Shown here in pieces: positions 32,799 through 57,319 of a DNA stretch of 64,000 nt. How positions within the stretch are numbered: position 1 is the stretch's first letter; the number at the start of each line of letters is the position of its first letter. The notes under the pieces are model-generated. The model was given only the letters and a program-made list of their open reading frames with translations, did no database searches and had not been told where the DNA came from. The DNA is taken from positions 19,721,260 through 19,785,259 of the forward strand of contig CM042087.1 of the NCBI GenBank assembly GCA_023512835.1. Direction: 5' to 3'. The position numbers and the translations under genes are program-made. Origin of the DNA: Taxillus chinensis (lineage: Eukaryota; Streptophyta; Magnoliopsida; Santalales; Loranthaceae).

Positions 32799-35792
32799 TT
32801 ATGGGTTAAATTCAAAGTAGAGTACACTCTGTGTAAACAGAAAAATAGTAGCTTGCTCGCGCAGGAGTTGAGCAGGAGTCAAGTGTAACGAGGCCGCTCG
32901 ACTGCTCACACAATCAAATTCAGGCACGAGAGCTGGGAACCCGTTGGTGGTCAGGATGCGAATGTAATGGCAAACATAGAAGCCGCAGCTATGAGCATCA
33001 TCCTGAGCAGGAACGCTTTGCTTGACCCGAGTAATTTCCATTGGTTTGGAGAGATGATAGCCACCACAACCATGCGAATATCTTTGCATGACACGGGTGA
33101 GAGTGCGATTGAATTCACGCAGTTGTTCACGCCGATGGATCAGTAAAGTACTAGGTTTGGAGTCGAAGATGACGATCTGTTGGTTCTTGAAGTCAAGATC
33201 GAGAAGAAACCAGTGCGGGGATGTGGACAAGTAGGGGATGAGCACATGGTCTACCTCATTCCAGGGACGGAAGGAGTTCTCATATCTGCGACCTTGTATA
33301 ATCTCGATCATTGTTGCATCATCGAGGAGCTGAGCCTGCATGATCGGCAAACAGAGTTCTACCCTAGTATCTCTGCGGATATGGAGAGGTAACTTCTCGA
33401 GGAATGACTTCTATGCGAAGATGAACTGAGTCATCTCAATATTATCCATTTCTTCACCGTCATGTAGTAGGCGACACAGGTCATGTCCGGTGAATAAGGT
33501 TTCATAGCCACAAGTCCTCGCAGTGGTATCCCCAGCAACATAAGTGTTGAATGCAGCCAGTTCAGCTGAGGTCCCTCCAGTTGTTACAATGCGAGGTGGG
33601 GTAAATGGTTGGTTAGTGGTAGTAGCATCTGGTTTAGTAGGGGAAGCAGGCATGGTGTACTCAGCCGCACTTGGATGGGTAGTGGAAGGACCAGGCTGAG
33701 TGGAAGAAGAGGGTTGGTAGGAAGCAGCTGACTGCTTCTTCATGCGGGTTGCAATGGGAACATCATCATCATCATCAGAATCGGTGATGACAGTGGTTCT
33801 ATGTGCACACTTTTGCCCATGCATGTAAGTGGTAGTAGATAGAGGTGGTGAGTGGCTCGGGGAAGGCACAGCTGGCTGTGGAGTATCTACTGGTTCAGGT
33901 GCAGGTCGGTCAGATGACTGTGGGAGTGTGTTTTTGACAGTAAGAGATATTTCGCCACTGGCAAGACGATGACATTCCGACAGAATAGCTCCCAGAGTTT
34001 TACTGAGTCCTTTGTATTGTCTCTGGTAAGCTCCTTTGATGTCTTCACAGTGTTCCTCCAGATGTCTAAACCCATCTGTGGTCACACTTGTGAGTGATGT
34101 CATTTCTTGTTGCACCTTGTCGAGGGTACGGTCTAATAATTCAACTTGAGTTCGTACCTCTTCCATACTTGACTCCATGGTAGCAAGTCGTTCTTCAAAG
34201 GCCTGAGATACTGATGTCTTGAGGATGCCAGAGGAAATCAGTTTCTCAATGACCTTGCTTGCCAGAAGATCTACTTCTTCAGCCGTCAGAGAACGTGAGT
34301 GAGACGCAGTTGGTACTGGGATAGCCATTGGGATATTGGCTACGAACTCCTCACTCACTTGAGTGGCCACTTGATGAATGACAGGTGCAGATGGTGTGGC
34401 TGTCTCAGTCCTTTCCACAGTCTCAGGGACTTGTGGGACAGCTCCTGCATCGGAGTCACTGGCTGCGGCACCAAGAGTTTCTTCTTCTTCTGCTTCTTCT
34501 TCTACAACAATTCCTACCACTTCAACATCATGTGGAGTAGATGTGGCAGGTGAGTCCACCATGATGGGAGATGGGGTAACCACTGATATGGCTTCCACTA
34601 GGTCTCTTCTTACAAGACCCTGTTCAACTAACCAATTAATCAGATGGTCTCTATCTACCATCTGTTTACCAAAGGCGATCTATGCCTTTCGTAAATCTGC
34701 GGGGGTCATATGAGCCTTGGCATATTCCATATAAAGTCTTCTAGCTCAGACTCCCCAAGAGTGCTCAATAGTACAGGTGTAGTACCCCCTATCCTCTGTG
34801 GTTTCCTATGCTGGTGTCTGCCCTTCATCTGCAGGTTCTCTTACTTCTGTAGTATCCTTGGGCAGCTCGGAAGTAGGGGCCTCCTCTGGTGTAGAATCAT
34901 TGGGGAGATGAGTTCAGGCAATGTTCCCCACCACTTCAGCTATATGTATTGTTGCGGCGGATGCAGAGGAGCCCCTAGAAGTCTGTGAGACACGGACCGG
35001 TTGTCGTGGTATGCGAGCTGGGGCTCGTACAGAGTTGGCTGTGTCTCCTGCATGACTTCTAGCACTCGACTTAGGCCACTTCATTGACTTGATCTCCAGC
35101 CGACCATCCTCATAAATGCTTTTAAATATGTATTTGGTCGGCAGTGGCACTGAAGGTTTGTTGTAGAATACGTCAAGGTGCAAGAACCTTAGGACTTTGG
35201 TGAGAAGTAGTCCAAAGTGTCCCTTCTTGCTTTTGATCATGGAGTGTATCTGAGTTCCCCAGTCTACTTGTCTTCCCTGTAGAACACTACACATGATCTT
35301 CATCTGCTCATGACTTGCAGAGTCATGAGCAGTCTTCTTACACAGTAGGCACTGTCTGGTGACTATGAGAGTCGCCAGTGCCTGACCAGAAAACCCAATC
35401 TTCAGGGCTCCCCGACCTTGCTTTCCGGGATTGGAATACCCAAGAAAAGACTTACACTCTTCTCTGGAGAGACTAGGAAGAGGATCAAAGTTACCTTTCG
35501 GGAGTGGAAGTGCATTTCTGAGCATTTCGGCAGAGATTCGAATCTCCACTCCATGTACAGTTCCCATAAGGTCGTCTCCAGCGAATGCCATGGTCTCATA
35601 AAATTCCGCGACATCTTCTATTAGCAAGTCTTGCATTCCTGAGCAGACAGACGCAATACCGGTTTCATTGAGGCGACTTCTGAATTCGTCCAGCCAGCGG
35701 ACTTTGGCGTCGCCTATGGCTTCCCAGTCGATGATGAATCCCGGGACGATGTTGCGTAGGTCGTCGGCCATCGATGAGCTTGGTCCTGCCAT
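32799..35792 (-). pseudogene. Post-pol ORF with plant-transposon-type N-terminus and Ulp1-like C48 protease (Sirevirus ORF2)
   Basis: A single frame of about 998 codons from ATG 35792-35790, broken only by five nonsense codons (34916, 34808, 34748, 34682 and 33413, first bases on the minus strand) and no frameshift. The N-terminal ~290 residues include DDLMGTVHGVEIRISAEML and VDWGTQIHS, shared with the Athila ORF2 and resembling the family annotated as putative plant transposon protein. The middle is acidic/Ser-Thr-Pro rich with a coiled-coil-like stretch (about 34200-34050) and DSDDDDD. The last 184 codons (33350-32799) form a C48 peptidase with PHWFLLDLD, VIFDSKP and AQDDAHSCGFYVC. His 46, Asp 63, Gln 116 and Cys 122 of that segment have the spacing of Ulp1 (17 and 6). 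Such enzymes cut SUMO/ubiquitin-like proteins or polyproteins; the substrate here is unknown. Confidence 0.85.
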
Positions 35793-36189
35793 TGAGCTTG
35801 TAGAGAGAGAAAGAGACACTCATAGAGAGAGATTGTAAGGTTCGAAGGTGGTCAAGGGAGAGAGAAAGAGAGAAAGAGACAAAATCGAAGAGAGAGAGAA
35901 AGAGAGAGAGTTCTAGGGTTAAGGTTCGAGTGTGAAAACGACGAACATACCTTTGAGCTCCATCTCTATCAGTGACTTATATATGAGTTGAGAAGTGTAC
36001 CGTAGAAGTCACTCACTCTGTCCGTTCGTCTTCATGGTCCGCGTTCTTTTCTCTGACCCGCCTCTTTTTCATCCAGATCCCCCCATTGGAATATTCAAGC
36101 AATGAGTCCACGTCACCCCTTATGTCGGTGTAACTTCCATTTTAAGTGCACAGTGACGTGCTGACGTGTCTGCGATGCTTGAATAGTAA
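35793..36189 (-). promoter_or_regulatory. Putative own promoter and leader of the copia-element ORF2
   Basis: The minus strand shows TATATAAG (35983-35976) about 185 bp before the ORF2 ATG, followed by a GA/CT-rich leader (35805-35930). No coding sequence. An ORF after pol needs either a subgenomic spliced RNA or its own promoter; this arrangement favours the latter but is inference. Confidence 0.5.
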
Positions 36190-36340
36190 GTGACAGACAC
36201 CGTCTCGCTTCGATCCTTTGGACTACGACTCTACGAAGCTGCATTAGGATGCTTCGAGGCTACGACCCTCGAAGCTTCGAAGCAGCAGTCTTCGATCCCG
36301 CAGTTCTTCGATGCAGTTTGCTTCAAGGTCAACTACGAAT
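36190..36340 (-). repeat. LTR-type CTTCGA/CTACGA repeat patch upstream of ORF2
   Basis: GACTACGACTCTACGAAGC, CTTCGAGGCTACGACCC and CGAAGCTTCGAAGC echo the repeat vocabulary of the copia and Tat LTRs but lie in the pol-ORF2 spacer, about 400-540 bp upstream of the ORF2 start. Confidence 0.7.
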
Positions 36341-37172
36341 TCAGCGAACGGTGGATTTCTCTGGACCTTTTCCAACACTTAACAACACACATGAGATGCA
36401 TATGAGAATTCACATAATATTATTCATGATGAACAGTGTTGTGAGTGGAATTGAAATTACATGCCCAGAACTTGATTTCTTTCAACCGTAATACCTGGTT
36501 TACATGTATGGCTACTGCATCACTACGATTCAACTTTCCATTTACCTTAGAAATGATTAAGTATTTCATCACACTACATCATGTGCCAGAAAGTGATCAC
36601 TATGTTAACATAGCATCCAGTAAACCATGGTTTATCAAGCAACCCAATCATGAATTTTGAGTCTCCTCACATATTTAGCAAAACTCACTCAGTGGAGGCC
36701 TGACCCTCTCACTCTCGGATCAGCATGTGAGCTTGATTCAAGAACTAGAATTACACTGTTTGGTAAGCTCATGGTCAACCGAATCTTACCACAACCCTGA
36801 TCCAACAATGATTTTTAGTTCAGCATAGATAACTTGAGAAACAAGATGGCCCTATTGATAATTAGAACTCATACTCTATCATTGCCTAATTTATAACATA
36901 GTACAGGTAGAGTTTGGAGTTTGATCATTCAGCTTGTCTATGTGAGTTGTCACTTTTCTTTTGTGGAGCACAATTTTTCAGTGCTTATTCATGAGCCTTT
37001 TTACAAGGACAGAGCTCAACATAGTATCTTTTTGAATCACAAGATCATACAATTTGACCTCCAACTATTACTCTAACAGAGACACAATCTGGGGGAATAG
37101 TGAGGACTCCTCCTAAGATAGGCAGTCAATCTATTGTCTATTATCATTTTACCTTTTTCACCTTGCCTTTTC
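36341..37172 (-). other. pol-ORF2 spacer of copia element 2
   Basis: AT-rich non-coding sequence; short ORFs only, none with recognisable motifs. Confidence 0.6.
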
Positions 37173-38385
37173 CAGTGAAAGGTAGTGGCTCTTCTTAAGT
37201 AATAAGCTTTTTATGATTCTCAAATACTACAATCTCAGTCATCCTTTGAGCATTAAATCATTGAGGATCCTTTCCGTGCAAGCCAACAGTACCATGAGAT
37301 ACAATAGTTCCTGCTAGTTAATGAATGCAATACCACACAGGTGATATTCGCTCAGAATAAAATGACAAGTAGTGGGAATATCATTTAATTTAAACATAAA
37401 GGGAATTGCACTCATTTCACTCAAGACTTGAGGATTCATGACAGATTGCATAAAAGTCTTGAACCAGGTTCTGAAGTGGCAAGTTTCATCCATGTGATTT
37501 CTCACTTTCCCGAGTAGACATGCATGAATCACACTTAGCCAGTACTAATTTTCATGGAGACATAAACAGTTATTAACAGTGTCATACTTATGTTCATGCA
37601 CAGGTAATTAGGTTGAAATGAAACACAAGACATGCTGTGAGACTTATGAATTTAAATCTAACATGCCAAGTTTTGTCAGAAGTTCATTGAACCTGGCTTC
37701 TTGCAGTGGTTTGGTAAATATGTCGGCAAGTTGATCATTAGTGGATATATACTCCAGGGAAATGTCTTTCTTCAGCACATGGTCACTTATGAAGTGATGT
37801 CTGACCTCAATGTGCTTGGTTTTGGGATGCATAACAGGATTGTTGGAGATTGCAATGGCACTTGTATTGTCACAATACAGAGGCACGGGCTTCAGGTTAA
37901 ACCCATAGTCTAAAAGTTGACTGGCCATCCAAAGAAATTGAGCACAATAGCTTCCTACAACAATATATTCAGCTTCAGCTGTGGAGGTTGAAACTAAATT
38001 CTGTTTCTTGCTATACCAGGATATAAGTCTATTGCCTAGAAGTTGGCATGTTCCACTTGTGCTCTTTCTATCAATCCTGCATCCTGCAAAGTCTGCATTT
38101 GAATATCCTCTTAGTTTGAAATCAGACTCTCTTGGATACTATAGTCCCAAATTCTCAGTTCCCTTCAAATACCGCACAATCCTTTTGACATGTGACAAGT
38201 GGGATTCCTTGGGATTAGCTTGGTATCTGGCACAGATACATGTTGCAAACATTATGTCAGGTCTGCTTGCTGTCAGGTACAGCAAGGATCCAATCATGCT
38301 TCTGTATTCTGAGATATCCACCTCCTTGCCTGCTTCATCCATATCCAGTTTGGCGTTTGTAGGAACGGGAGTTTTCATGTGTGTC
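37173..38385 (-). repeat. 1.2-kb duplicated copia segment, original copy
   Basis: Nearly identical to 59279-60493, with only a handful of differences seen by eye (e.g. 37471 region, CCCGAGTAG versus CCCGCAGTAG near 37512, and 37633). Followed in both places by the start of an Athila LTR, TGATAATGTGC. Here it is in its original context, contiguous with the rest of copia element 2. Confidence 0.93.
37644..38385 (-). pseudogene. RT C-terminus and RNase H of copia element 2
   Basis: Runs from MKTPVPTNAKLDMDEAGKEVD through SMIGSLLYLTASRPDIMFATCICARY, RKSTSGTCQLLGNR, AEAEYIVVG, CDNTSAIAISNNPVMHPKTKH, to LADIFTKPLQEARFNELLTKLGM. A TAG after TENLGL (near 38139) breaks it; otherwise motifs are complete. 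The upstream RT half lies at 61997-62792, separated by the Athila insertion. Role: RNA removal during cDNA synthesis. Confidence 0.9.
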
Positions 38386-38473
38386 TGATAATGTGCATTT
38401 TATGCCGTTATTCTAGTGTTTATTTAGGATGTTTAAGAGCATGATTAGAGCCTTATTGCTTCATATATCATAT
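38386..38473 (+). repeat. 88-bp duplication of the LTR start
   Basis: TGATAATGTGC...CATATATCATAT is repeated beginning at 38474 (TGATAACGTGC...). The copy at 60494 has the unit once, so the duplication is specific to this LTR. Confidence 0.9.
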
Positions 38474-39532
38474 TGATAACGTGCATTTTATGCCGTTATT
38501 CTAGTGTTTATTTAGGATGTTTAAGAGCATGATTAGAGCCTTATTGCTTCATATATCATATATATTTGCTCTAACCCCTAGGAAGATGCTATTTGCAAAT
38601 ACATGCGTTTTTAAGTTGTTTTGGCAGATTTTGGACCTCACTTTTGACATAGTAGATGGCCTCAAACAATTGGCGTGCAAGAACAAAAGTTTCTTAGAAT
38701 GATGGCCTCTACCTACCAGAAATTTCAGAGCATTTGGAGCATTTGGAGTTGCACGTGAATTCACCCATTTCACGTGCAAGCATATTTTTGCCTCTCAGGC
38801 CTCTACATGATGCAAGGAAGCTTGGGGAGAAGTTTAAGCTGATTTGGAGCTACACGTGAATTCACCATATCACGTGCAAATTGGCGTGCAGAGATATTTT
38901 TGGACCGATCCAATCGTTTTTCCATGCCGATCATTTGTTTCTGAAGGCCCATGTCCAAATTGTGGATGGAAGATAGAGATTTTAAAGTTTCGAGTGTTAC
39001 TTATCAAAACTACGTCGTTTTGATAAATGGGCTAGGTTACACACCTCAAGGCCCATCCAACCTCTATAAATACAGCCTCCATGCCCCCTGCTATGTATCC
39101 TAGACCCCCTACACATTTTTAGAGAAAGAGAGAGGCTTCACGACTTGGAGGTTGCTCCTTGACCTAGGAGAGCAGCCGTCGCAGCCGTCGCAGCAGCCGT
39201 TGCGGATTTTGGAGCCTGGATTTCAAGCTTTGTTGCACACGTGGATTAGAAGAAGATGTTTAGCTTTTCTGCTATGGTTTTGCTTGTAATCATGCGTGAA
39301 TAGTTCTTATAATCTGGGGGAGCAATGTAGCCCCCTTGTTGCTTTGCTGTGTTTATGAATATTGGGTTTGGATGATTGAGTTTTGCATGTTTTATGAATC
39401 TGTTCTTAAGTTCTATCTTTGGATGTACACCTTGGTATTCTTAGCCCTAGTCTGGGGCGGATTGAGATTCATAATTTATTTGTAATTGGTGTGATCATTA
39501 TCCTTTTGCAAGTATAATTTATTGGCTTTGCA

Positions 39533-40640
39533 TGTCACGCCCCGGATTTCTAACCCTAGGAAACCGGTACGTGACTCCCCTTTTACCCACACGGAGGGCA
39601 AAGGGGTTAGGATACAAACCAAGAATATTACATTTTAAACATCCACCACACATTCAAGAAACTAATGTTCATAAAAGCAATCCAAACCAGTTTATTACAA
39701 CAAAATCCTTTCCAAATCCCATCCCCACTGGGGTTACATCAATTCCCATAAAAAAAAAAACAAAACATAAATGGAAGAGAGTAAAATAATTATGGTCTTC
39801 CACCTTGGTGTATCCACCTAACGCCTGTAAGTCCCTGGAAAACAAGCAAACACAGTAGGAGGGGTGAGCAACCACAGCTCAGTAGGGATCAAGTCTCCCT
39901 AACCCTTCCCATGCTCCTAGCGGCTACATGCATGTGCACAGGTGTAGTGACGTGACAATATTAGGAAAAAGAAAATAAAACATCACACAAGTGGGCGTAA
40001 CCCCAGCCCCAGCCACACTGGCTAACAAAACACATCTCAAGCAAGTAGTTTAACCGCCTCTTCAGGCCACTGATTTAACCGCCTCTCAGGCAAAGTAGTT
40101 TAACCGCCTCTTCAGGCCACTGGTTTAACCGCCTCTCAGGCAAAGTAGTCTAACCGCCTCTTCAGGCCAGATAGCACAGTCATGCACACAACACACACCA
40201 CGGTCACTCAAGCATAAAACCAAACACTTGGTGTGCACCCATTCACAAGTGCACAAACCCAGCCATTCAGGTCATAGAACAAACACCCAGCATACATACA
40301 TACACTAAATCACAAGTCCAGCCACACAGACATATTACCAAACACGTAATGGCCATAAACACACAGCTATATTCACACAGGCATTTCATCGAACATATAG
40401 CATGTAACAACAAAATCACACCAAAATGCCACTGAAGGCCAACATCCATATAGGATATCACAACTATATGGATTACATATGTATATATAAATAGATATAA
40501 CTCCACAATCTGCCCTAGAACCCTAGGACAGAGGAGGATTTAGGAGAACAGAACCCCTACCTTGTATGTTCTCCTACTCCCGCTTCCACGCAAGACTCCG
40601 ACCACCCACGCAAGACGCTCCGGCAGCCACCAGAAGCTCT

Positions 40641-40684
<44 letters not shown>

Positions 40685-41362
40685 GATGGCTGGTGGAGCA
40701 ACAAATCCTAAACCTAAAACAGAGGGGCTTCTCCTCCTTATATAGACAACACAACATCAAAACAACGTAGTTTTGATTAAGTGAATCGCAGCATCAAAAC
40801 GACGTAGTTTTGATGGAACAAGCTATGACCTTCCCACATCCATACACACCAAAATACTCACAATTCCAACATGGTCCTTTGGGAAAAGATGATTAGAATG
40901 ACAAAACCAAGATAACTATGCAAAAACATGCTTGCACGCCAATTTGAACGCCAATTCCCCAATTGACGTGCAGCTCCAAATGCACTCAAACTTCACCCCA
41001 AGCCTCCTTGCATCTTGTAGAGGTCTAGGAAGCAAAAATATGCTTGCACGTGAAATGAGTGAATTCACGTGCAGCTCCAAATGCTCTGAAATTTCTGTGG
41101 TAGATAGAGGACCTCATTCTAAGAAACTTTTGTTCTTGCACGCCAATTGTTTGAGGCCATCTACTAGGTCAAAAGTGAGCTCTATGATCAGCCAAAACAG
41201 CTTAAAACCGCCTGTATACGCATAGCATCTTCCTAGGGCATAAAGGTACGTTATCACTTGTCACATGCACCTCCCAATCATCTCTTACCTCAAACTTGTG
41301 CACCAACATCCAAGGTGTTTGTGGTTAACTTCATACACACGGGTTACACACAGGTCATTACA
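39533..41362 (-). mobile_element. Solo LTR of the Tekay-like family
   Basis: TGTCACGCCCCGG...GTCATTACA, 1830 bp, flanked by a perfect TSD ttgca (39528-39532 and 41363-41367); the empty site is seen at about 61514-61518. Same family as the LTRs at 472-4248 and 9830-12232, with a (CT)n tract (about 40640-40682), a TATA on the minus strand (about 40738-40746) and the Athila-like segment at about 40912-41255. No internal region, so it arose by LTR-LTR recombination. Confidence 0.94.
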
Positions 41363-41833
41363 TTGCATGTCTGTGTGTTTAGATGACCATTCTGGCATAC
41401 AACTCTTAAAAGGACCTCAATGACCATTTGTTGTCCTTGGCTTATGTTTAGCATGTTTTCAATCAGACAACCCTAATACCCTGAACCAGTAGAGATAACA
41501 TAGAGAGGTGAAATTGTGATCCTAGATGCTTTAATCCTTGAATCTTAATCCTAAAATCAATTTGCTTTCTTTGTTTATTCAGAAAATCAAATAAAAATTA
41601 GATCTTTAGTTAAAAAAAAGAATTCGTTTTTGCCAAGACATTGTTTTAAGCAAGATTAATTTGGTGATTTGAGTTAAAGCTAGATAACTTGGTAATCTAT
41701 ATGGGATCGACCCCTTTCTTGTCGCTATTCTAATTAGCATTAGTTAAGGGAATTAATATTTTGAGAAGGGATTTAAATGACAATAGCTTAATCCTCACTT
41801 GGGTTTCGCTCACGAAATACCCGTTCGTCAAAT

Positions 41834-41851
41834 TGGCGCCGTTGCCGGGGA
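41834..41851 (+). promoter_or_regulatory. Primer-binding site of the Athila-like element
   Basis: TGGCGCCGTTGCCGGGGA, the PBS typical of Athila-lineage elements, three bases after the LTR end. Confidence 0.92.
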
Positions 41852-42047
41852 TTCAATGGTTAACTAGCTTTAGAAATCAACATTGAGTGAAATTGTTTGA
41901 ATTCTGATGTTGGTGTTTATTTTGTCTTTTATTTTCTGTTGTTTTGTGTTCTTTATTTGTTTATTTTGCATTGCTCGGAGCTGCTGGGTGTGTTCTTGTT
42001 GTTTTACAGGAACATACACCAAGTGTTGGAGGAATTCCTAGTTGTGC
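41852..42047 (+). other. Leader of the Athila-like element
   Basis: T-rich untranslated stretch between PBS and the gag ATG; no ORF. Confidence 0.6.
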
Positions 42048-43940: not shown

Positions 43941-44620
43941 CAGAGTTTGGCCATCAAGCATAAAGATCCGGGCAGTTTTAATCTCCCTTGTGTGATTGGC
44001 AATGCACCGCAGCAGCAGGCCCTATGTGATTTAGGGGCCAGCATCAATTTGATCTCCTTTGCTTTGTACAAGCAGCTTGGGCTTAAGGGCATGAAGCCCA
44101 CTTCCATATCATTGCGGTTCTCGACCGGTCTCCTGGAAGGCCTGAAGGGATAATTGAAGACGTGTTAGTCAAAGTGGGATCCTTCATATTTCCAACGGAC
44201 TTTGTAGTTTTGGAGATGGAAGAAGATAGAGGAGTTCAGCTACTCCTTGGAAGACCGTTTCTCAGAACGGGTTGTGCATTGATTGATGTTGCTCAAGGGC
44301 AGCTAACTCTGAGAATTAATGAGGAGACCTTAGTCTTCCACATGGGGAAGGCTTTGCAAGGTCAAGAGGAGGAGGACTGCCTTTGGGTTGAAGACCTTGA
44401 GGAATTGGTGGAAGATTATTTGGCAGAAGAAATTACCACCACTAATAATGGAGCCCTTCAGCTTATAGAAGCTCAACAAGATGAAGAGATGTACTTGACA
44501 GCTGAGGAAAATGAGCAAACTACAAACTCTCTGGAGCAAGCTGAGGAGGAGAAAGAAGATGACATGCCTCCAGCTCTGGAACCGAAGGAGCTGCCTAGAC
44601 ACCTAAGGTACGAATTTCTA
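43941..44620 (+). pseudogene. Protease and acidic linker of the Athila-like element
   Basis: FNLPCVIGNAPQQQALCDLGASINLIS holds the Athila-type protease motif (DLGA). A frameshift near 44120-44140 moves the rest (IIEDVLVKVGSFIFPTDFVVLEMEED, LLLGRPFLRTGCALIDV) to another frame, followed by a Glu-rich linker. It would cleave gag-pol. Confidence 0.87.
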
Positions 44621-45751: not shown

Positions 45752-46076
45752 TGTGTGATGCGAGTGATTATCTTGTGGGGGTAGTCTTAGGGCAAAGGCG
45801 AGAAAAGGTGTTTAGGGTCATTTACTATGCTAGTAAGACCTTAGATGATGCTCACAGAACTATACCACCACCGAGAAAGAATTGCTAGCCGTGGTTTATG
45901 GTCGCAACAAGTTTAGACCCTACCTTTTTGGGTCTAAAGTCATTGTTTATACTGATCATGCTGCATTGAAATATTTGTTTGCTAAAAAATAAGCTAAGCC
46001 ACGCTTGATTAGGTGGGTTCTCCTCTTATAGGAATTTGACCTTGAAATTAGAGACACAAAGGGAGCCCTAAATTCT
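45752..46076 (+). pseudogene. RNase H of the Athila-like element (decayed)
   Basis: Reads ELMCDASDYLVGVVLGQR and FRVIYYASKTLDDAHRT, then frameshifts within TTKKE-like and LAVVY-like parts. A TAA near 45991 and a TAG near 46030 occur before [22 protein letters not shown]. Non-functional. Confidence 0.85.
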
Positions 46077-47058
46077 GTGGCTGATCACCTCTCCCGTGTG
46101 GAGAATACACCTAAGTCTCTACCCATTGTAGATGACTTTCCTGATGAGAAGTTGTTTAAGGTGCATCATCTTCCTTGGTTTGCTGACATAGCAAATTATT
46201 TAGCCACAGGGTTCATACCCATGCAGTTAGACTACCACCAGAGAAAGAAATTGTTAGTGGATGCTAAGAAATTCATTTGGGAAGACCCAATTCTTTATAG
46301 GAGGTGTCCAGACCAAATCATTAGAAAGTGTGTCCTTGAGGAGGAGATAGATGACATAATACATCATTGTCATGCATCACATTATGGGGGCCACTTTGGG
46401 GTGCAAAGAACTATGGCTAAAATCATGCAGTGTGGCTTCTATTGGCCTCACATGGTGAAAGACACCTATATCTACATTAAAAAGTGTGATAGATGTCAAA
46501 GGGTAGGTGGTCTGTCTAGGAAAAATGAGATGCCCTTAACTGGAATCCTTCCAGTTGAAATTTTTGACATTTGGGGCATTGACTTCATGGGGCCATTCCC
46601 CAATTCTGATGGGTATTCATACATTTTGCTTGCTGTGGATTATGTGTCTAAGTGGGTAGAAGCTATTCCTACTGGAGTGAATAATGCTAGGGTTGTGACT
46701 CACTTCCTTACTAGGAACATCTTTAGCCGTTTTGGGACACCAAGGGCTATAATCAGTGATGAGGGTAGTCATTTCTGCAACAAATTGTTTGACAAATTAT
46801 TGAACAAGTTTGGTGTCACTCATAGGAAGTCTTTAGCTTACCACCCACAAGCTAATGGACAAGCAGAAGTGTCCAACAGAGAGATTAAGGCCATTTTAGA
46901 GAAAACTGTTGGAGGCAATAGGAAAGATTGGTCTCAAAGGCTTGATGAAGCCTTATGGGCATATAGGACAGCTTACAAAACTCCTATTAGGATGTCACCT
47001 TACCGTATTCTATATGGTAAGGCATGTCACTTGCCTGTGGAACTAGAACACAAGGCTC
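46077..47058 (+). pseudogene. Integrase of the Athila-like element, 5' part
   Basis: Open frame with the zinc-binding H-H-C-C region ([13 protein letters not shown]...[10 protein letters not shown]), and the DDE core seen as [19 protein letters not shown] and [14 protein letters not shown], up to LPVELEHKA. At 47059 another element begins. The last codons of the apparent ORF are LTR sequence. The reading frame continues at 53745 (AHWALKKLNF). Confidence 0.92.
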
Positions 47059-48560
47059 TGACCCGGATAAATTATGTCTGAAGGTTTTGCAGCAAGTGCA
47101 CTGGTCAAGTAATAAAATGGAGTATTAAGACTCCGGTTGTCGAACCCACAGGGAGGTAGCTAATGCTGTTAAGCAGCAAGCACTAAGCTAACAAGTTGAT
47201 TTTATGTCTGGACAATTGATGTTTGTTGTGCAAATATTTTGAACAAAAAGATATTAAATCAGAATGTTGGCAAGCGGTTGGTATAGACATCTAGGGTCAC
47301 AATGATTACCACCCAATCGATTGTACTAATCTGGTTATGGCTCTTGTTCTTGAGTTATGTTCTAGTTCAAGTTCATGTTGATTATCTCCTACCTATCTTA
47401 CATTTGGTCCATGCTAAGATAGATTTAAGGCTTTTATCCCATTTGATCCATGCGAATAAAAGTGATCAAGGTAGACAAACAATCTAATAGTTGCCGACTT
47501 GGTCTATCATGCAATATTAAATCTAATTCACTAGTGTTCCACCCTAGACAAGGGCTAAGATTACCTAATCATGCATAAATCAGGCATTTGCTTTCATACA
47601 AGTGAATTAAACAAGAACTGAATTCTATTTTATTGAACAACCATAACCAAACCGACTACAATTTCTTGGGGGCTACATTGCTCCCCTAGACTAACAAGAC
47701 TACTCCATAATCATGATAAAAACAATAACAATCATAGGAAAGAACATGATTATAGTACCAGGACAATAAAGGAAGACCCCAAGATGAACCAGGACTCCGG
47801 CCTCCAAAGACTCCAAGGCTGCTGCCCAAACTCACTCCTTGCCAAGGACAATCCGATCTTTTAGCAATGGCTATAGCTCTTTTCAGAACTCAGATCAGAT
47901 TCTCCCACTCAAGATGATTTACAATGCCTCCAAAGACCCCTATTTATAGGTTTTAGTGGGCCAACTTAGGGTTACAAAAGGTGTGCCCTAATTATAAATG
48001 TGGTCGTGACCAAAACGACGTCGTTTTGGTTAGTGACACTAATCGACGTTCTAGGCGAAATAAAACTCAAACTACACCAAATTTGACCCCAGTTCTTTAG
48101 AGGAAAATGATTAAAACAACAAAATACATCATTGGGAGCACAAAAATGCTTGCACGTGAGAATGCACGTGAGAAGACCCTTTTCACGTGCAGCTCCAATT
48201 TGACTCAAATTTGCTCCAAAGCTTCCTCTTGAGTTGTAGAAGGCATCTATGCAATAAAATCCTTGCCCGTGAGAATGCACGTGAGAAGGCATTTCACGTG
48301 CACCTTGATTTTGCCTTCATTTTGCTTCCATCTTCTTCCTATAGCTTCCTTGTGAGTTGATGGAGTGATCTAGCCAAAGTGTGTGGGACAAGGTTGCTCC
48401 AAAACCTGCCAAAAACACTCAAAAAGTACCACTATACACCAAACAGGGTCTTCCTAGGGGTTAGAGCAAATATGTCAAAAATAACATGCAAATAGGTACA
48501 AAACATACGCTAAAACACCCTATATAAGGCATAGGATAACGGCATAAATGCACGTTGTCA
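47059..48560 (-). repeat. 3' LTR of the non-autonomous Athila-type element
   Basis: TGACCCGGATAAATTATG...CACGTTGTCA on the plus strand (minus: TGACAACGTGCATTTATGCC, related to the Athila LTR start). Holds CCAAAACGACGTCGTTTTGG (about 48010-48029), several CACGTG motifs (48150-48300) and a TATAAATAGG (minus, about 47949-47940). Confidence 0.94.
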
Positions 48561-49897
48561 AATTCCCCCATACTTGAACCTTTGCTTGTCCTCAAGCAAA
48601 AAGAAATAAACACATCAAACGGAAAAGAACGAATAAACTAACAAACAAGAGAGGCATGGTTTCCCAAGGCATACAATCCTATCATGATGAAGTAGACATT
48701 CCAATAGCTAAAAATGAATCATAAGTTAATCAACACATGCCCTTACTATTAAGTCCAACAACCATGTAATATCGTTACTAACAGTCCAGATAGAAGCAAA
48801 CATGCCAGGATAAAATGAACTTAGCTCCCCCTGAAAGTCCGCACCAAGGTTAGAGCAGCCTCACTTAAATGTCACTTTCTTTTCTCTCCTTTCAGGCCCT
48901 ACTATCAATGCCTAGCAGCTAAGGATTTACTCTTTCACCCACTACTAACTATTGATTAAGTTTTGCCATGTAAACATAAGAGATCCCCACTGTGCTCGTC
49001 AAGGGAGACACACCCTCTAGTCTACTTTAGGACCAACACTTGGAGCTAAAGATGGAAGCTCACACTTGTGAAACAAATTGCAAGACAAACAGCTTAGCCA
49101 TTATGGCTGCAGCACGAAAACAAAAATACATAGAAACAGTAAGCCATTGTGACTTTTATTCTGGCAAACACCCTTTTTTTTTCCTGTGTTTTTTTTTTTT
49201 CACACTTATTTTTAGTAATAACCTTACAAGGTTGCATTTTATGCTCTCCCTTGATGGATTATTCACTCTGCTATTGTCCTCACACAAGCCCCCCCTTTTT
49301 TTTTTTTTTTTTTTTTTGAACAAGAACTAGAACTGAGCGAGAATACCTGGAATCGCGAACACCATACACCAAACACGGAGCACAACAGTACTTCTTATGC
49401 CTAAGTAACTCCAACTATCAAATAGCTAGTAATGAATATTAAGAGCGAATTGATAACCCAATAACCCATAAAATACACTCAAAGGTAAGATAATGGTGCT
49501 CTCAAAAAGTATATGCCTATTCTACACTCAACTTCAGGGTTTACAAAGCTCATCCTAACATAACATGCTCAGCTTTACTATTCAAACGTCAGCTCCAAAA
49601 TCATGGTGATATCATTCAACAAGTAAAGACATGCTCAACTAACTTATAACACACCTTAACAAGTGAAACATCCTTATCACAACAAGATACTAAGGTGGTC
49701 AGTATAGGCAACCAGAATTGTCATACCTTGGTAGCCATTGCACCTCACAGGCAAAACAAACATTCACAGCAAAAACATAAAATAAAAGTAACGCATGCAG
49801 GCAACCAAACAAGCAACCGGTTCAAGGGAAATCCCCCCCCCATACTTAAACGAAGCGATGTCCTCAGAGCATGGAAAAAGTAAAAGGAAAAAGAGCG
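48561..49897 (-). other. 3' UTR and polypurine tract of the non-autonomous element
   Basis: The minus strand ends in AAGTATGGGGGAATT before the LTR. Contains T-rich runs (49170-49200, 49295-49317). Segments such as GATGGATTATTCACTC (about 49252) match the reverse complement of 58140-58160, so this 3' UTR is shared with the Athila element. No gene. Confidence 0.75.
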
Positions 49898-50566
49898 TTA
49901 CCGGTTGGTGGGAAGGCTATAGTAGAAGATAACATGGGCCACCATGCGTCGAAGACGTGCGACAAAGTCAGCCGAGGTTTCTCCTGTGAGTGCCCAAGTA
50001 TCCTTATGCTGTAATAGAGCTATCAAATAATAGCAGACAAAAATCCCACAACTGAATTGATCAGGTTGTTGGGGAAGCTCCATTTCATTGAAGTGCACCA
50101 GAGGTAACTTGGATGTCAACAGCCCTTCTTTTCGGAGTGCGGTTTTGATTTTTTTCAAGAAACCATGGACCAGCTTCTTCTTTCGTGTGGAAAACCCATG
50201 GGCTTGGCTCGGGTCATAAAGGACGGCATGGCCCACAGTCAGGTCCAACTGCAAGAGTACAAAGTGTCGTTCAAGGAGGACCGGTATAAGAACCTCGTGG
50301 ACCTGGTGCCAAGAGCGATGTCCTTCTGCAGCTCCATTCATCCGCCGGCGGAAGATATGTTCCTCTAAGGGCTGCTCATAAATCTCACACAGCATGATAG
50401 AAGTGTACTGAGCCATAGGGTAGTCGTTGGGCTCGGCTTCCACCACATGTCGCATCGTACGGCAGAATAAGTCAACGTCATCGGAAGATAAGTACTCATC
50501 AGCTAGGATACGCTGTAAATAAGATGACGTGAAGACTTCTGAATCACGTGTAAAACGGGCTTGCAA
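49898..50566 (-). CDS. Ulp1-like C48 cysteine protease domain of the non-autonomous element
   Basis: 222 codons open without interruption in this part of ORF2. Begins inside a conserved helical region (RFTRDSEVFTSSYLQRILADEYLSSDDVDLF) shared with 56219-57319. The protease core shows ERHFVLLQLDL, AVLYDPSQ and LPQQPDQFSCGIFVCYYL. Counted from the first residue of this segment, His 101, Asp 118, Gln 167 and Cys 173 match the Ulp1 pattern in spacing (17 and 6). The C-terminus FVARLRRMVAHVIFYYSL resembles the host-element copy. Likely a deSUMOylase-like or polyprotein-cleaving enzyme; the substrate is unknown. Treat as the intact C-terminal end of a partly broken ORF. Confidence 0.85.
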   Translation of the reverse strand: MQARFTRDSEVFTSSYLQRILADEYLSSDDVDLFCRTMRHVVEAEPNDYPMAQYTSIMLCEIYEQPLEEHIFRRRMNGAAEGHRSWHQVHEVLIPVLLERHFVLLQLDLTVGHAVLYDPSQAHGFSTRKKKLVHGFLKKIKTALRKEGLLTSKLPLVHFNEMELPQQPDQFSCGIFVCYYLIALLQHKDTWALTGETSADFVARLRRMVAHVIFYYSLPTNR

Positions 50567-51746
50567 GGTGTCTCCATAAGTAAACTCTTGAAAAGCATCG
50601 TGGCATCAGCAGTGGAGAGGGCCGGATGAAGATGAATATAAACGGGCTCCCCTAGGTCATCTTCCTGGGGAGCTTCGGAAGATGCGCCAGACCACCATTG
50701 CAACGGCTGAATTAAGGGAACTAGGGCCTGTGAAGAGTGGGCCCGGCTGGTGGTGGGAAATAAACCGGAACTGCTGGAGGGAAGGGTGACGCGGTGTAGG
50801 GCTCCGCCTCTTGCGGATACTGTGGATACTCCGGTGTCTCTTCGCTATGCGCAGCGTGCTGCTGTACCGGAGGTGACGGTGCGTCAAATGGATCCTCCAC
50901 AGGAGGTGTAGGAGTTGTCTTCTTCTTTTTCCCCAGGGCTCTCCAGATCTTACCGAGCAGCCCTTTGACTTCCTTCTGCTCCTTGAGGATTAGAGTTTGA
51001 TTTTTCTTCAACAGCCCAATCTCCTGAACGGTTTCCGCTTGTGCCTCTTGTAGTTAAGCGGTTGCTTCGTAAGTCTTCATAAGAAGCAGCAGGAGTTGGC
51101 TCGGGGCTTCCCATGGTCGGGTAGATGGACGAGACGTTGCTTGTTGATCTTGAGTGATGTACTCGAGCAGCTCATCCAGCTGAAGTCTCGTGATGTGGCC
51201 ATTAGTGAAAGCCCAGTTAAGAACGTCAACTTCACTGATAACTTGGCCACTGATGCCTTGGAAGAAATTGTAGATTTCCTCCTTGTGAACATTGAACTGC
51301 ATGTACATGGCGATCAATCTGGAAAATGTGCTTTGTCGGCGGGCATTCATGGGAGTGGAGGTGTCCCGAAACTGCTCCGTGGGTCGCTCCATATGCACGC
51401 TATGACGTGAAGGCTGTGGTGCAACGTGGATACTATCTCCCCATTTGCCCTTGTAGCTAACTCCTAAAGCACCCCTGGATGGAGAACTTGTAACCGCAAG
51501 TTATCCGGGAAAACAAGGGGGACTACTTGAGCACTAAGATGACCATATTGATATTGCAGAAGCATGCTAAGTAGTCGACCATATAAGCATTTATGAATAT
51601 CCCGTTTCCACAATTTAAAAATTTCCGCAGCCCAATCAATGTGTAACTGGCGATCGATGCAAAACATAAACTCCAAATGGGATTTAGGGACTGAGTCTAC
51701 GCCACTAGTTTGTAACAGTAAGCACCTCCCTACCAAATTGGCAAGG
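50567..51746 (-). pseudogene. N-terminal and middle part of ORF2 in the non-autonomous element
   Basis: Starts by fusion with gag at about 51746: CLANLVGRCLLLQTSGVDSVPKSHLEF...HIDWAAEIFKLWKR matches 55440-55600 of the Athila ORF2. Then come FNVHKEEIYNFFQGISGQVISEVDVLNWAFTNGHI, a coiled-coil/charged stretch (NQTLILKEQKEVKGLLGKIWRALGKKKK) and a Pro-rich linker. Stops and frame changes occur near 51464, 51060 and 50721. The first ~150 residues of ORF2 are missing. Confidence 0.8.
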
Positions 51747-51749
51747 CAA

Positions 51750-52046
51750 CTAGTGTGTTAGCTCGAAGTTGTTTGCTTGGACCGGCACCCTTCTGATGCC
51801 TGAATACTCATCCGATAATACAGGTCTAGCATAATCCATGAAGGTCCTTGGCTGATAACCTCCTTGGCCGTTGTGTCCCTGATCTTCCCTTGCTCTGTTT
51901 TCAGCCATGATTTCTTCACACATGGTATGTAAGCCTTCCAACTGCTGTTCAGCTGCAGCCAATACCCTCTGAGCTCTTCGCTGCTCTCGCAATGTTCGTT
52001 CGATTTCGGGATCGTATGGTAATAGCTCACCCCTGGTGTGACGCAT
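51750..52046 (-). pseudogene. gag N-terminal fragment of the non-autonomous element
   Basis: ATG at 52046-52044 gives MRHTRGELLPYDPEIERTL, a charged helix, then YQPRTFMDYARPVLSDEYSGIRRVPVQANNFEL. This matches the first ~100 residues of the Athila gag at 42048. The match stops exactly where gag is joined to ORF2. Retaining the leader and gag start suggests these bases hold packaging signals; that is inference. Confidence 0.85.
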
Positions 52047-52211
52047 ACACAGAGGAATTTTCTCAAACACCTAAGGTGCACTCCTGACACGTAGCAAAAA
52101 CAAAAAGATACCAGGTAACACCGTACTAGCAAAAGTACAAGAAAATAAAATTCCAGATCACAAATAAACTTGAGCACCTAATGTCACTTAGTCCTAACAA
52201 CGTTTGGCGTG

Positions 52212-52230
52212 CCTCCCGGCAACGGCGCCA
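52212..52230 (-). promoter_or_regulatory. Primer-binding site of the non-autonomous element
   Basis: The minus strand reads TGGCGCCGTTGCCGGGAGG, the Athila-type PBS, six bases inside the LTR edge at 52237. Confidence 0.9.
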
Positions 52231-52236
52231 AAAACT

Positions 52237-53739
52237 TGACCCGGATAAATTATGTCTGAAGGTTTTGCGGCAAGTGCACTGGTCAAGTAATAAAATGGAG
52301 TATTAAGACTCCGGTTGTCGAACCCACAGGGAGGTAGCTAATGCTGTTAAGCAGCAAGCACTAAGCTAACAAGTTGATTTTATGTCTGGACAATTGATGT
52401 TTGTTGTGCAAATATTTTGAACAAAAAGATATTAAATCAGAATGTTGGCAAGCGGTTGGTATAGACATCTAGGGTCACAATGATTACCACCCAATCGATT
52501 GTACTAATCTGGTTATGGCTCTTGTTCTTGATTTATGTTCTAGTTCAAGTTCATGTTGATTATCTCCTACCTATCTTACATTTGGTCCATGCTAAGATAG
52601 ATTTAAGGCTTTTATCCCATTTGGTCCATGCGAATAAAAGTGATCAAGGTAGACAAACAATCTAATAGTTGCCGACTTGGTCTATCATGCAATATTAAAT
52701 CTAATTCACTAGTGTTCCACCCTAGACAAGGGCTAAGATTACCTAATCATGCATAAATCAGGCATTTGCTTTCATACAAGTGAATTAAACAAGAACTGAA
52801 TTCTATTTTATTGAACAACCATAACCAAACTGACTACAATTTCTTGGGGGCTACATTGCTCCCCTAGACTAACAAGACTACTCCATAATCATGATAAAAA
52901 CAATAACAATCATAGGAAAGAACATGATTACAGTACCAGGACAATAAAGGAAGACCCCAAGATGAACCAGGACTCCAGCCTCCAAAGACTCCAGCGTCTG
53001 CTGCCCAAACTCACTCCTTGCCAAGGACAATCCGATCTTTTAGCAATGGCTATAGCTCTTTTCAGAACTCAGATCAGATTCTCCCACTCAAGATGATTTA
53101 CAATGCCTCCAAAGACCCCTATTTATAGGTTTTAGTGGGCCAACTTAGGGTTACAAAAGGTGTGCCCTAATTATAAATGTGGTCGCGACCAAAACGACGT
53201 CGTTTTGGTTAGTGACACTAATCGACGTTCTAGGCGAAATAAAACTCAAAACTACACCAAATTTGACCCCAGTTCTTTAGAGGAAAATGATTAAAACAAC
53301 AAATACATCATTGGGAGCACAAAAATGCTTGCACGTGAGAATGCACGTGAGAAGACCCTTTTCACGTGCAGCTCCAATTTGACTCAAATTTGCTCCAAAG
53401 CTTCCTCTTGAGTTGTAGAAGGCATCCATGCAATAAAATCCTTGCCCGTGAGAATGCACGTGAGAAGGCATTTCACGTGCACCTTGATTTTGCCTTCATT
53501 TTGCTTCCATCTTCTTCCTATAAATTCCTTGTGAGTTGATGGAGTGATCTAGCCAAAGTGTGTGGGACAAGGTTGCTCCAAAACCTGCCAAAAACACTCA
53601 AAAAGTACCACTATACACCAAACAGGGTCTTCCTAGGGGTTAGAGCAAATATGTCGAAAATAACATGCAAATAGGTACAAAACATACGCTAAAACACCCT
53701 ATATAAGGCATAGGATAACGGCATAAATGCACTTTGTCA
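52237..53739 (-). repeat. 5' LTR of the non-autonomous Athila-type element
   Basis: Nearly identical to 47059-48560; differences seen include GCGGCAAG/GCAGCAAG, a CTCCAGCGTCTGC/CTCCAAGGCTGC change and CACTTTG/CACGTTG at the end. Same palindrome (about 53188-53210) and CACGTG motifs. Confidence 0.94.
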
Positions 53740-53744
53740 GGCTC

Positions 53745-54103
53745 ATTGGGCCTTGAAGAAGTTAAATTTTAACCCACAAGAGATCAAGGAGCTTAGGATG
53801 ACTCAATTAATTGAGTTAGATGAACTTAGGCTGGATGGCTATGATAGTGCTAAATTTTACAAAGAAAGAACTAAGAAATGGCACGATAGGCAACTCAACA
53901 ATGAACCTTTAACCTTAGGGCAGAAAGTTCCTCTATTTAACACAAGGTTGAGGTTATTTCCTGGAAAATTAAGGTCCAAGTGGATGGGACCTTTTGTGAT
54001 AGTTGATAAGAAGCCATATGGGAGCTTTGAGCTCCAAGCTATAGATGGCAAGAAATTTTGGGTGAATGGCAACAGACTGAAACCATACTTTGATTCAACT
54101 TAG
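53745..54103 (+). pseudogene. Integrase C-terminus of the Athila-like element
   Basis: Continues the frame broken at 47058: AHWALKKLNFNPQEIKELR, then QLIELDELRLDGYDSAKFYKERTKKWHD, KVPLFNTRLRLFPGKLRSKWMGPFVI and KFWVNGNRLKPYF, closing at TAG 54101-54103. This SH3-like/GPY end binds DNA. Intact over this segment. Confidence 0.92.
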
Positions 54104-54997
54104 AGGGAGATAGTCGATTCCCTCTCTTTCACCATTGCATGATCATAACTGAAAGTCTAGCTACAGACTTTAAATAAAGCGCTGGTTGGGAGGCAACCCA
54201 ATGTTTATTGCTATGTTTTATTTTATGTTATTTTCTTTTATTTATTATATTCAATAAATTTGTTTGCAAGCTAACCATTGTCCAGGAGACTTTGCTTCTT
54301 TCTTAACTAACCATTTGCAAGATGAGCAAATTATTGGGTCCTGAACTTGTGGAATTATTTTTAAAGTCAAAGTCAAGGAGCAAGGAGCAAGTGAAGCCCA
54401 AAAGTGCTTGAAGATGGGCTCAAACAATTCACGTGCAAGACTTAAAGATGGTCCATAATGCACAAGCAACAAAGTGGAGAAATTTGGGCCAATTTGGGCC
54501 TGAACGTGAATTTGCACGTGAATTGCCCAATTCACGTGCACCTCCTTTTGAGCTGTAACTTTCTGGAATGGTAGATGAAGACCATGTGAATCACGTTTAC
54601 TCTTACACGCGAATTGCTAGCTGTCATATGGAGGCTCAAAAATACAAAATACCGATTTTAGCCATCCTAGAAGCTTCAAACAATTCACGTGCAGAAGGGA
54701 CTATTGCTTGCCAGCTCAAGGGGGACCCACCACCAAAGTTTGGGACGATTCTGACTCGCACGCCAATTCAACTAATTCACGTGCAAGGGATATTTTGGTC
54801 AGAACACTCTGAAAATTTAGGGGCACGTGTATCACGCCAATTGGAGCATCTTTCCTTCTGCACGCTATATAAAGAGAGGCCATCTTCAAAGGCTTCCACA
54901 CCAAAATCACTCCACATCCGAGTATTAGAGAAACTCTGCTCTTTTGCTCTCTTGCTCTTCGGTTTTCCGCTCTTTGCTCTTTATTCTCATTCTAAAG
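54104..54997 (+). promoter_or_regulatory. Intergenic region with LTR-like promoter ahead of Athila ORF2
   Basis: Non-coding. From about 54420 it carries at least six CACGTG/TTCACGTGCA motifs, phrases like those of the Athila LTR U3 (CACGTGCAAGGGATATTTTGG), and TATATAAAG at 54866-54874, 132 bp before the ORF2 ATG. This looks like a separate promoter derived from LTR-type sequence. Confidence 0.6.
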
Positions 54998-57319
54998 ATG
55001 GTGCGCACAAGGAGGACTGGCCAGGAGGAGGTGCACTCACCTAGTGCTGATAGCCAACCTGAAGAGGAGATACTCTTGAGGCATGCTCTTGATATGCAGG
55101 CTTTGGAGGCTTTGGAGGCTTCAAAGCCGGGCGGGCTAGAGAGGTGGCTCTTAAAATTCAAAATTTGGGATTACAAAGGTTAGTATCCTTGACCCGGCTA
55201 TTTCCTACTCGCCCTACAAGAATTTTATGCATCTGTCTCTGTGAGTGAGGATGAACTGATAGGGGTTGTGCAAGGGGTTTATGTCAGAATTACCCCTGAA
55301 ATTATTAGACATTGCTTTAACCTCCCTGCACCCAGTGATAGCCTTCCTCAGCTAAGTCTAGGAGAATTTGGTACTGCATGCAACTATGCTAGAAAATTTC
55401 AAAGTAGAAGGCAGTATACCAAGAATGGTTTTGTTGGAAAATTTAGATGCCTAGCATACCTAGTAGGAAAATGCTTATTGATTCAGACCAGTGGGATAGA
55501 TAGTGTGCCTAAGCCACACCTGGAGTTGATGTATAGCATTGAGCATATGCTAAATGTGGATTGGGCCACTACCATTTTTAAATGGTGGAAGAAAAACTCA
55601 TCAAAATAGATAAATGGCAGATTTTTGTGTTTGATATTTCAAAGCATGCCTGCTTTGCATTTTTCCTCCATGGATAGCATCACTTTTCCTTCTCACTGGG
55701 TGTTACGAGTATTGCATGCTGAAGGAGGTTTGGGGATCAGTACCAGAGGACATTGGGCAACCAATGTTCCTCCTCCATCACAGCCCGCTAGGCACAGTGT
55801 TTATGTGGAGTGATCCACTGACTTTGCAAGGGAGACCTCTCCTCATGTGGATCCAAGGAAGCAGACTCTATACAGACTCACTGCCATGTACATGCAGTTC
55901 AACGTACACAAAGAAGATATTTTCAATTTCTTTCAAGGCATTAGTGGGCAGGTGGTGAGGGAAGTGGAGGTCATCAATTGGGCAGTCACTAATGGGCACA
56001 TCACTAGTGCCCAATTTGAAGAATTAATGGCCCTCATCTCTGGAGACCAACAAGCTACTTCATAACCTAGAACCAGAGCATGGGAGGCCCCAGATGTAGC
56101 TGCTCATGCATCTCCTAGAGCATGGGAAGCCCCAGAAGCTCCTCCTACTGCATCTAACGAAGCTTGGAGGCAAGAAACACAGCAGCTCAAGGAGGCAAAT
56201 GCTAGAACCCAGCGCGAGGTGGAAGCCCTGAGGAAGGACAACAAAGAAGTCAAAGGCCTCCTAGGCAAAATCTGGAAGGCCTTGAGCAAGAGGAAAGCAT
56301 CAAAATGTTCTCCTATAGTGGAGATATTTGATAAAGAACCCTCTCCATCTCCTGAAGTTTCTTATCCAGCCCAGGCGGATCCACCTCAACCAGAATCTTC
56401 AGCTAGGCCATCCTACTATCAGCCTCAAGAGGAGAAAGAGCCAACAGAAGGGTATTCACCCTTCCAGCCTTTTACTGATCCTGCATATTCTCAGGCTATT
56501 GTGCCTGTTATACATCCTGTCTCTTGGGGTACATACATGCCTGCTGAACCTGAAGACCTTCTTGGCCCTCCTATCTATTTAATCATTAACCCAGCCTTAT
56601 CATCTACTGAAAGTCAAGCAGCATTTGAAGACTTCATTAATTCTCAGGTGTTAAGGGCTCGATTTGCAAGGGACATGGACCTCTTCACCTCGTTTGTCCT
56701 TCAAAGGATTTTAGGCGATGAATATCTATATTCAGATGAGGTGGACTTGTTTTATAGGACTATGCATTTTGTTGTGGAGGCTGAGCATCATAATTACCCA
56801 CTGTCCCAGTATACCTCTATTATGTTGTGCGAGCTTTATGAGCAACCTTTGACTGAAAGTGTGTGGCGCCAGCGTATAAATGGGCAGAATGAAGGGCACC
56901 GTCCTTGGCATGGTATACTCGAGGTGTTGATCCCTATGCACATTGATCGTCACTATGTCTTGGTGCGTGTGGATTTGAGTGCAGGGCATGCGGTGCTTTA
57001 TGATCCAAGCCAAGGCGAAGGGTTCACCAGAAGAAAGAGACGGCTTGTTCATGGGCTCATAAAAAGAATCAAGGATGCGATGAAACAAGAAAGATTGTTG
57101 CAGGATAAGCTCCCTCTTATTCACCTCAACAAAATGGAAATTCCTCAGCAGCCTGACCAATTCAGCTGTGGGATCTTTGCTTGCTACTACATGATGGCTA
57201 TTCTGCAAGGGAAGGAAACTTGGGAAGTGCGCGGCGAGACGTCGGTTGACTTTGTGGCTCAGGTGCGACGAATGGTGGCTAATGTCATCTACTATTACAG
57301 CTTGCTAACTGAGGGGTAA
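54998..57319 (+). pseudogene. Athila ORF2: plant-transposon-type N-terminus, coiled coil, Ulp1-like C48 protease
   Basis: ATG at 54998 (MVRTRRTGQEEVHSPSADSQ), then after a stop at about 55180: FYASVSVSEDELIGVVQGVYVRITPEII...DSLPQLSLGEFG, CLAYLVGKCLL and LNVDWATTIFKWWKK, homologous to the copia ORF2. A TAG at 55607-55609 and frame changes follow; next come MYMQFNVHKEDIFNFFQGISGQVV and a TAA near 56063. The last 366 codons (56219-57319) are open: charged coiled coil, Pro-rich linker, helical domain, then protease with DRHYVLVRVDL, AVLYDPSQ and IPQQPDQFSCGIFACYYM. Within that segment His 245, Asp 262, Gln 311 and Cys 317 give Ulp1 spacing (17 and 6). No signal peptide or membrane segment seen, so it is not an envelope protein. 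Confidence 0.88.

Follow-up and report, generated by a model that had tools for sequence, protein, structure and literature searches.

A two-domain post-pol gene with a C48 protease domain in copia and gypsy retrotransposons of Taxillus chinensis

Plant long terminal repeat (LTR) retrotransposons may carry an extra gene behind pol, and the origin, expression, and function of such envelope-like (env-like) genes are treated as open questions in the consulted portions of three sources (PMC3414828, PMC2829016, PMC6317226). Described here is an open reading frame (ORF) in this position in Taxillus chinensis, located in a 64-kb stretch of contig CM042087.1 (C4, 19721260-19785259; hereafter the window) and followed through the 521-Mb assembly. 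It is carried by a copia element and by an Athila-like gypsy element and combines an N-terminal Transposase_32-like domain with a C-terminal C48 (Ulp1/SENP-type) protease domain.

The env-like genes of SIRE/Sirevirus elements (eORF-3'F) likewise lie behind pol and occur in 74% of the surveyed SIRE elements; unlike the ORF described here, they are described as 19 groups that show no similarity to one another and whose origin is unknown, and the main text of that survey does not mention C48 (PMC6317226). A PF20167-like domain in a post-pol sense ORF is likewise present in the 3' additional ORF of sunflower Athila elements, for which the consulted part of the report mentions no C48 domain (PMC11728184). 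Plant mobile elements with an Ulp1 domain also include the Vandal-type Mutator-like elements (MULEs), in which it is part of the accessory gene VANC (KIU, Kaonashi); these, however, are DNA transposons (PMC13317346, in part). The Ginger1 transposases contain C48 as well, and the Ginger1 integrase groups near Athila/Tat, but these are animal DNA transposons in which C48 is part of the transposase (PMC2836005, in part). In rotifers, the same extra ORF is found in LTR and Penelope-like elements, which are unrelated retroelement classes; these ORF3 types differ in encoding a GDSL esterase or a DEDDy exonuclease, and they were found not to depart from neutrality (PMC5408684, in part). Gene23 of Grande, an accessory gene too, lies in the 3' part of the internal region and has a promoter of its own, but it is antisense, and its product is described as nuclear, with no protease stated in the portion of the source at hand (PMC7264820). 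Among the titles and abstracts listed, none deals with C48 in a post-pol ORF of copia elements from plants or of Athila elements; subscription papers and supplements lay largely outside this search, and an earlier mention is possible. Extra ORFs have reportedly been surveyed by Steinbauerova et al. in 2011.

The two-domain post-pol protein

An earlier note, made from the letters of the window, had claimed that three post-pol ORFs end in a C48 protease. The Pfam search bears this out, with PF02902 scores of 52.0 bits for the copia element (32799-33410, minus strand), 47.9 bits for the gypsy element (56066-57319, plus strand), and 37.1 bits for a pol-less Athila derivative (49898-50605, minus strand) against a cut-off of 20.7 bits. 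The derivative had been read as one ORF (51746-49898), which does not hold since it is frame-shifted. The copia and gypsy C48 pieces are 25% identical over 138 amino acids (BLASTP, 37.7 bits), and comparison of their profiles, built like all profiles compared here from small alignments of the same genome with four to six rows each, gives a probability of 99.7% over 220 columns. The catalytic His, Asp, Gln, and Cys align in order and with the usual spacing in all three window copies. Herein, the His–Asp gap of 17 and the Gln–Cys gap of 6 are present as noted earlier; as evidence of sharing they are generic to C48, human SENP1 having the same gaps when counted on the alignment. SENP1, SENP2, and Ulp1 are the solved structures closest to the C48 pieces, with best E values of 0.017 (copia piece), 3.7e-5 (gypsy piece), and 7.4e-7 (copia profile). 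A full-length C48 domain of 79.7 bits was also seen in a 1092-amino-acid open frame of a 209-kb unplaced contig (C191; L009:1402-4677), which gave no element match; the contig is perhaps foreign.

The N-terminal block that the copia (34917-35792) and gypsy (55193-55609) ORFs were said to share is confirmed: in a single BLASTP comparison, the two are 31% identical over 127 amino acids (71.2 bits, E 3e-20), and their profiles match with 99.9% probability over 223 columns, whereas the control comparison of the N domain with C48 gives 0.1%. A Pfam search, proposed in the earlier note for the three proteins, places C48 over its cut-off and leaves the N domain below that of Transposase_32 (PF20167; 13.5 bits for the window copia and 22.7 for gypsy against 45). 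At E up to 0.1, PF20167 matches five of six copia rows and three of four gypsy rows, the best of the ten reaching 36.4 bits. One kindred place (C9:26777757) scores 45.6 bits and is followed on its strand, at a distance of 1.7 kb, by a C48 domain. A profile search of the PDB with the N domain gave no match at E up to 1.

At least 7 of 147 Transposase_32 places have a C48 place 1.3-1.75 kb downstream, a lower bound since the count took in 42 of the 150 scored C48 places and 100 of 143 further stretches, other lists being left out; those inspected among the seven belong to retrotransposon families. Linkage of the two domains is not universal, since one strong Transposase_32 place that was inspected (L056) has no match to the C48 queries in 2.9 kb. 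Likewise, no N-domain match was found in the 3 kb preceding a gypsy-C-like C48 (L005). Judged from these comparisons, the post-pol slot of both superfamilies is occupied by one homologous two-domain protein.

Carrier families, constraint, and history

The two-domain ORF was traced beyond the window in six families of the assembly, copia A-C and gypsy A-C. A first look at the genome gave 4308 candidates with PF02902, 5031 with the copia piece, and 8022 with the gypsy piece, most of them unscored; the best scored candidates comprise 150 places at 87-100% and 100 places at 78-100% identity. Twenty loci, each spanning some 9.5 kb with a C48 match inside, were chosen by eye, mostly for long open frames, and hence are not a random sample. 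Twelve of them have pieces of copia pol that precede the ORF and share its orientation, one (L019) has gypsy gag, reverse transcriptase (RT), and integrase, and seven are without assigned pol. Intact copies exist, since the ORF of L019 is one open frame of 674 amino acids across both domains. Later additions are L031 (gypsy B, pol present), L039 and L033 (copia C, its RT 72% identical to that of copia A), and L055, placed as gypsy C by ORF similarity alone with no pol in view. The ORF is accompanied at its locus by pol of the stated superfamily in copia A, copia B (L012), and copia C (L039) as well as in gypsy A (window) and gypsy B (L019, L031).

For copia A2, five further upstream stretches are without SIRE pol; L054 has weak copia-like pieces and L052 a chromovirus. 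A chromovirus as carrier was considered for L013 and L040, which have a chromovirus integrase upstream of the ORF, and was rejected, a nested insertion being the probable cause. Between the two loci, the end of the chromovirus is alike but nothing matches from there to the ORF, and among 150 scored chromovirus places (9644 first-look candidates; judged by eye) only that of L013 itself lies beside one of the listed copia-A2 ORFs. About 3 kb before one copia-B-type ORF, an open piece resembling a Geminivirus Rep was observed (L010:1058-1981, C2 ~27761038-27761961; PF00799 87.2 and PF08283 76.4 bits), which looks like an endogenous geminivirus fragment.

The post-pol ORF is kept under purifying selection. 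The ratio of nonsynonymous to synonymous substitution rates (dN/dS) of C48 is 0.13-0.40 within copia A (10 pairs), 0.09-0.16 between copia A and A2 (five pairs, with dS near saturation), and 0.16, 0.20, and 0.25 in copia B, gypsy A, and gypsy B (one pair each). These values fall within the range of RT, which is 0.13-0.42 in copia A (21 pairs) and 0.08 in gypsy B. The N domain shows 0.24-0.58 in copia A, 0.16-0.19 between A and A2, and 0.17 in gypsy B; the linker shows 0.15-0.29, with one recent pair at 1.46. Two comparisons of gypsy A with the derivative are saturated in dS (0.07 and undefined). Since dead copies raise dN/dS, the constraint in the mobile lineages is real.

The earlier note had held that the ORF moved between superfamilies or was captured independently from one source, and had proposed comparing ORF and RT phylogenies. 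Within this one genome, the distances are discordant. The summed branch lengths of the ORF are 3.2 between copia A and C, 3.1 between copia A and gypsy A, and 2.3 between gypsy A and B, whereas those of RT are 0.31, 6.8, and 0.37. The ORF distance is therefore equal between and within superfamilies, and the RT distance is about 20-fold larger between them. The ORF trees are without deep resolution, as seen when N and C48 are taken separately. In the joined tree, grouping copia A (p of the approximately unbiased test, p-AU, 0.399) or copia B (0.401) with gypsy is not rejected, and neither is a single copia clade (0.218) or a single gypsy clade (0.206) in the C48 tree, which was built without 3 of the 25 rows.

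An ORF inherited vertically from the common ancestor of copia and gypsy would agree with the position of the two superfamilies on opposite sides of one branch, supported at 56/85 in the N tree and at 76/82 in the joined N and C48 tree (10 rows). That branch is short, however, and because ORF and RT distances are discordant, which saturation weakens but does not reverse, plain vertical descent with pol is very unlikely. To this extent the earlier claim stands; of its two alternatives, exchange and capture, the trees fit either. The data suggest exchange between elements or capture of one already fused donor gene. Independent captures of a fused N-domain and C48 gene from one donor, be it a host gene or a MULE-type transposon, are a substantial though lesser possibility: Ulp1 capture is described for MULEs in the consulted part of PMC13317346, and several captures are as compatible with the near-star ORF trees as exchange is, but no fused donor outside LTR elements turned up, albeit without a systematic search, and the inspected places among the Transposase_32 and C48 pairs counted above are retrotransposon families. 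The ORF distances are saturated and give neither the number nor the direction of transfers. For the 19 mutually dissimilar eORF groups of SIRE elements, fast evolution or separate acquisition is left open in the survey, as far as consulted (PMC6317226). In the present cases, fast evolution is favored, since similarity among the ORFs of copia A, B, and C is as low as about 25-31% despite their homology.

Candidate internal promoter and putative role

For the Sirevirus env-like gene, an internal promoter has been proposed but not identified (PMC2829016, in part), and a review has the 5' LTR drive env-like genes in the portion consulted (PMC7264820). New here is a candidate for the promoter thus suspected earlier for Sireviruses, located before the ORF. 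The minus-strand leader of the window copia ORF2 (35793-36007) contains, in this order, TATATAAG at -191, AACCCTA at -128, and a CT-rich stretch; the plus-strand leader of the gypsy ORF (54866-54997) has TATATAAA at -132. The TATA pattern was noticed first in copia A and then checked in the other families by scanning for TATAWAWR within 250 bp upstream of the ORF. It was found in six of eight copia A copies, in one of two copia B copies (inside a TA repeat), in the gypsy A window copy, in both gypsy B copies (positions counted from about 5 bp before the ATG), and in the one gypsy C copy (-153). Further gypsy A copies have CTATATAAAG in six of seven cases, the seventh alignment stopping inside the motif. 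Copia C has only TATTTAAA upstream, and both copia A2 copies are without TATAWAWR in the 250 bp. The background is 5.8% of 4386 windows, which overlap and contain element copies themselves. Excluding copia A, four of five families have the motif (binomial P ~5e-5), and excluding copia B too, three of four (P 7e-4). Since a TATA box precedes the ORF by about 90-220 bp in five of six families, the post-pol gene probably has its own TATA promoter.

AACCCTA, which occurs in 2.4% of background windows, is present in all 12 copies of copia A, A2, and B; the leaders of copia C, gypsy A, and gypsy B all lack it. Between the window copy and an A2 copy (L015), 171 of 196 aligned bases of the 215-bp leader are identical, a figure raised by the CT-rich stretches; in the N domain, the same copies differ at about half of all synonymous sites (proportion 0.52). 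Promoter-like blocks and the further families both go beyond the earlier note. A motif resembling a 5' splice site, GGTAAGT or GGTATGT, follows the TATA box in the copia A leaders inspected (e.g. L018, L028), and a short leader intron in copia A is possible.

The account we consider probable overall is that of a shared accessory protease gene composed of the Transposase_32-like domain, a variable linker, and C48. Transcribed from its own TATA promoter, it would yield a trans-acting protein that removes SUMO or ubiquitin-like modifiers from their conjugates, and it would have spread by exchange or single-donor capture. The N domain would target the protease, most likely to nuclear host factors such as silencing proteins, or else to element proteins. 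The trans-acting deconjugase, possibly counter-silencing, is the leading, tentative proposal for function; the closest parallel in a mobile element, the Ulp1-bearing VANC of Vandal MULEs, is tied to hypomethylation of related copies in the text consulted (PMC13317346). Several observations weigh against this account. The AlphaFold models of the N domain and C48 are poor (predicted local distance difference test 36 and 47), and Foldseek ranks SENP5, SENP3, SENP1, and Ulp1 on top for the C48 model with template modeling scores of only ~0.25. Neither the protein-database search nor scans of viral contigs gave outside relatives, so that all comparison is intragenomic, and dS is saturated between families. 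The window copies are all broken, with five in-frame stops in copia ORF2, five in the gypsy ORF, and a frame shift in the derivative. Of seven pieces scanned for the basic cluster K[KR]x[KR], three contain it, in one case within the catalytic domain, and the copia A and gypsy B pieces all lack it; a nuclear location of the protein is weakly supported.

That the protease instead matures Gag or other particle proteins appears unlikely. Viral particle proteases are distant clan kin, the derivative ORF weakly matches the adenovirus protease (PF00770, E 0.14, under the cut-off), and the derivative retains a gag fragment together with the ORF; the closest solved structures, however, are SUMO proteases, the copia and gypsy elements have their usual pol genes, and a separate promoter would uncouple the protease from Gag. 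Still less probable is expression from the LTR by splicing or read-through with an envelope-like or movement role. For env-like genes, the consulted part of PMC2829016 reports splicing in Bagy2 and Athila and stop suppression in SIRE1, and the donor-like motifs of the copia A leaders would fit such splicing, but simple stop suppression is ruled out for this copia family by the 1.85 kb without coding sequence that separate pol from ORF2, TATA boxes precede the ORFs, and an enzyme domain under selection argues against an envelope-like role. In Pfam searches of the ORF rows, no env family scored over its cut-off, with one weak PF02710 match (E 0.067).

With the accessory protease gene, the env-like genes in this genome gain one identity, namely a C48 protease under selection with a candidate promoter and a cross-superfamily history. 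Were the protease to cleave off SUMO or a different modifier, several very abundant element families would be manipulating a host pathway in parallel. It is conceivable, though doubtful, that many Sirevirus/Athila env-like genes are one self-contained counter-silencing cassette of promoter, targeting domain, and SUMO-type protease traded between superfamilies, with their dissimilarity due to fast evolution and not to separate origins.

Layout of the window

The window is a nest of LTR retrotransposons, in which a minus-strand copia element is split by the plus-strand Athila-like gypsy element, itself split by the pol-less derivative. The copia element (copia element 2) comprises, on the minus strand, integrase pieces (64000-62994) and RT (RVT_2, 62792-62079), both from domain searches, and RNase H at the end of pol (38000-37647, read by eye), the pol pieces being separated by the nested gypsy element. 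The order integrase, RT, RNase H and the presence of RVT_2 are those of copia elements. After the 1.85-kb gap follows ORF2 (35792-32799), with a linker at 33411-34679 between the two domains, and then a probable 3' LTR (32387-30342) recognized by similarity to 28142-26161, with approximate boundaries. The gypsy element comprises, on the plus strand, gag from 42042, RT from 44087, integrase at 46032-47081, and the post-pol ORF at 54998-57319. Its integrase piece, the end of which is cut by the derivative, has no Pfam chromodomain match. The copia lineage we tentatively take to be SIRE and the gypsy lineage Athila.

The derivative (47059-53739, minus strand) is bounded by LTRs that are 98.9% identical (47059-48560 and 52237-53739) and flanked by the 5-bp repeat GGCTC. 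It retains an N-terminal gag fragment (52049-51759, 44% identical), which adjoins a piece (51748-51590) that matches the gypsy N-block piece, 138 residues long, over its residues 86-138 (62%).

Two copies of the copia RNase H region, at 37171-38473 and 59277-60581, flank the nested gypsy element (99.4% identical over 1305 columns), probably owing to a local duplication. Elsewhere in the window, a gypsy-type protease ORF with a G-patch domain (PF01585) lies at 12526-14007 and 14577-15092, where about 1 kb containing the G-patch region is tandemly duplicated with 96% identity, and a tandem array with a period of ~31 bp extends over 17703-18026.

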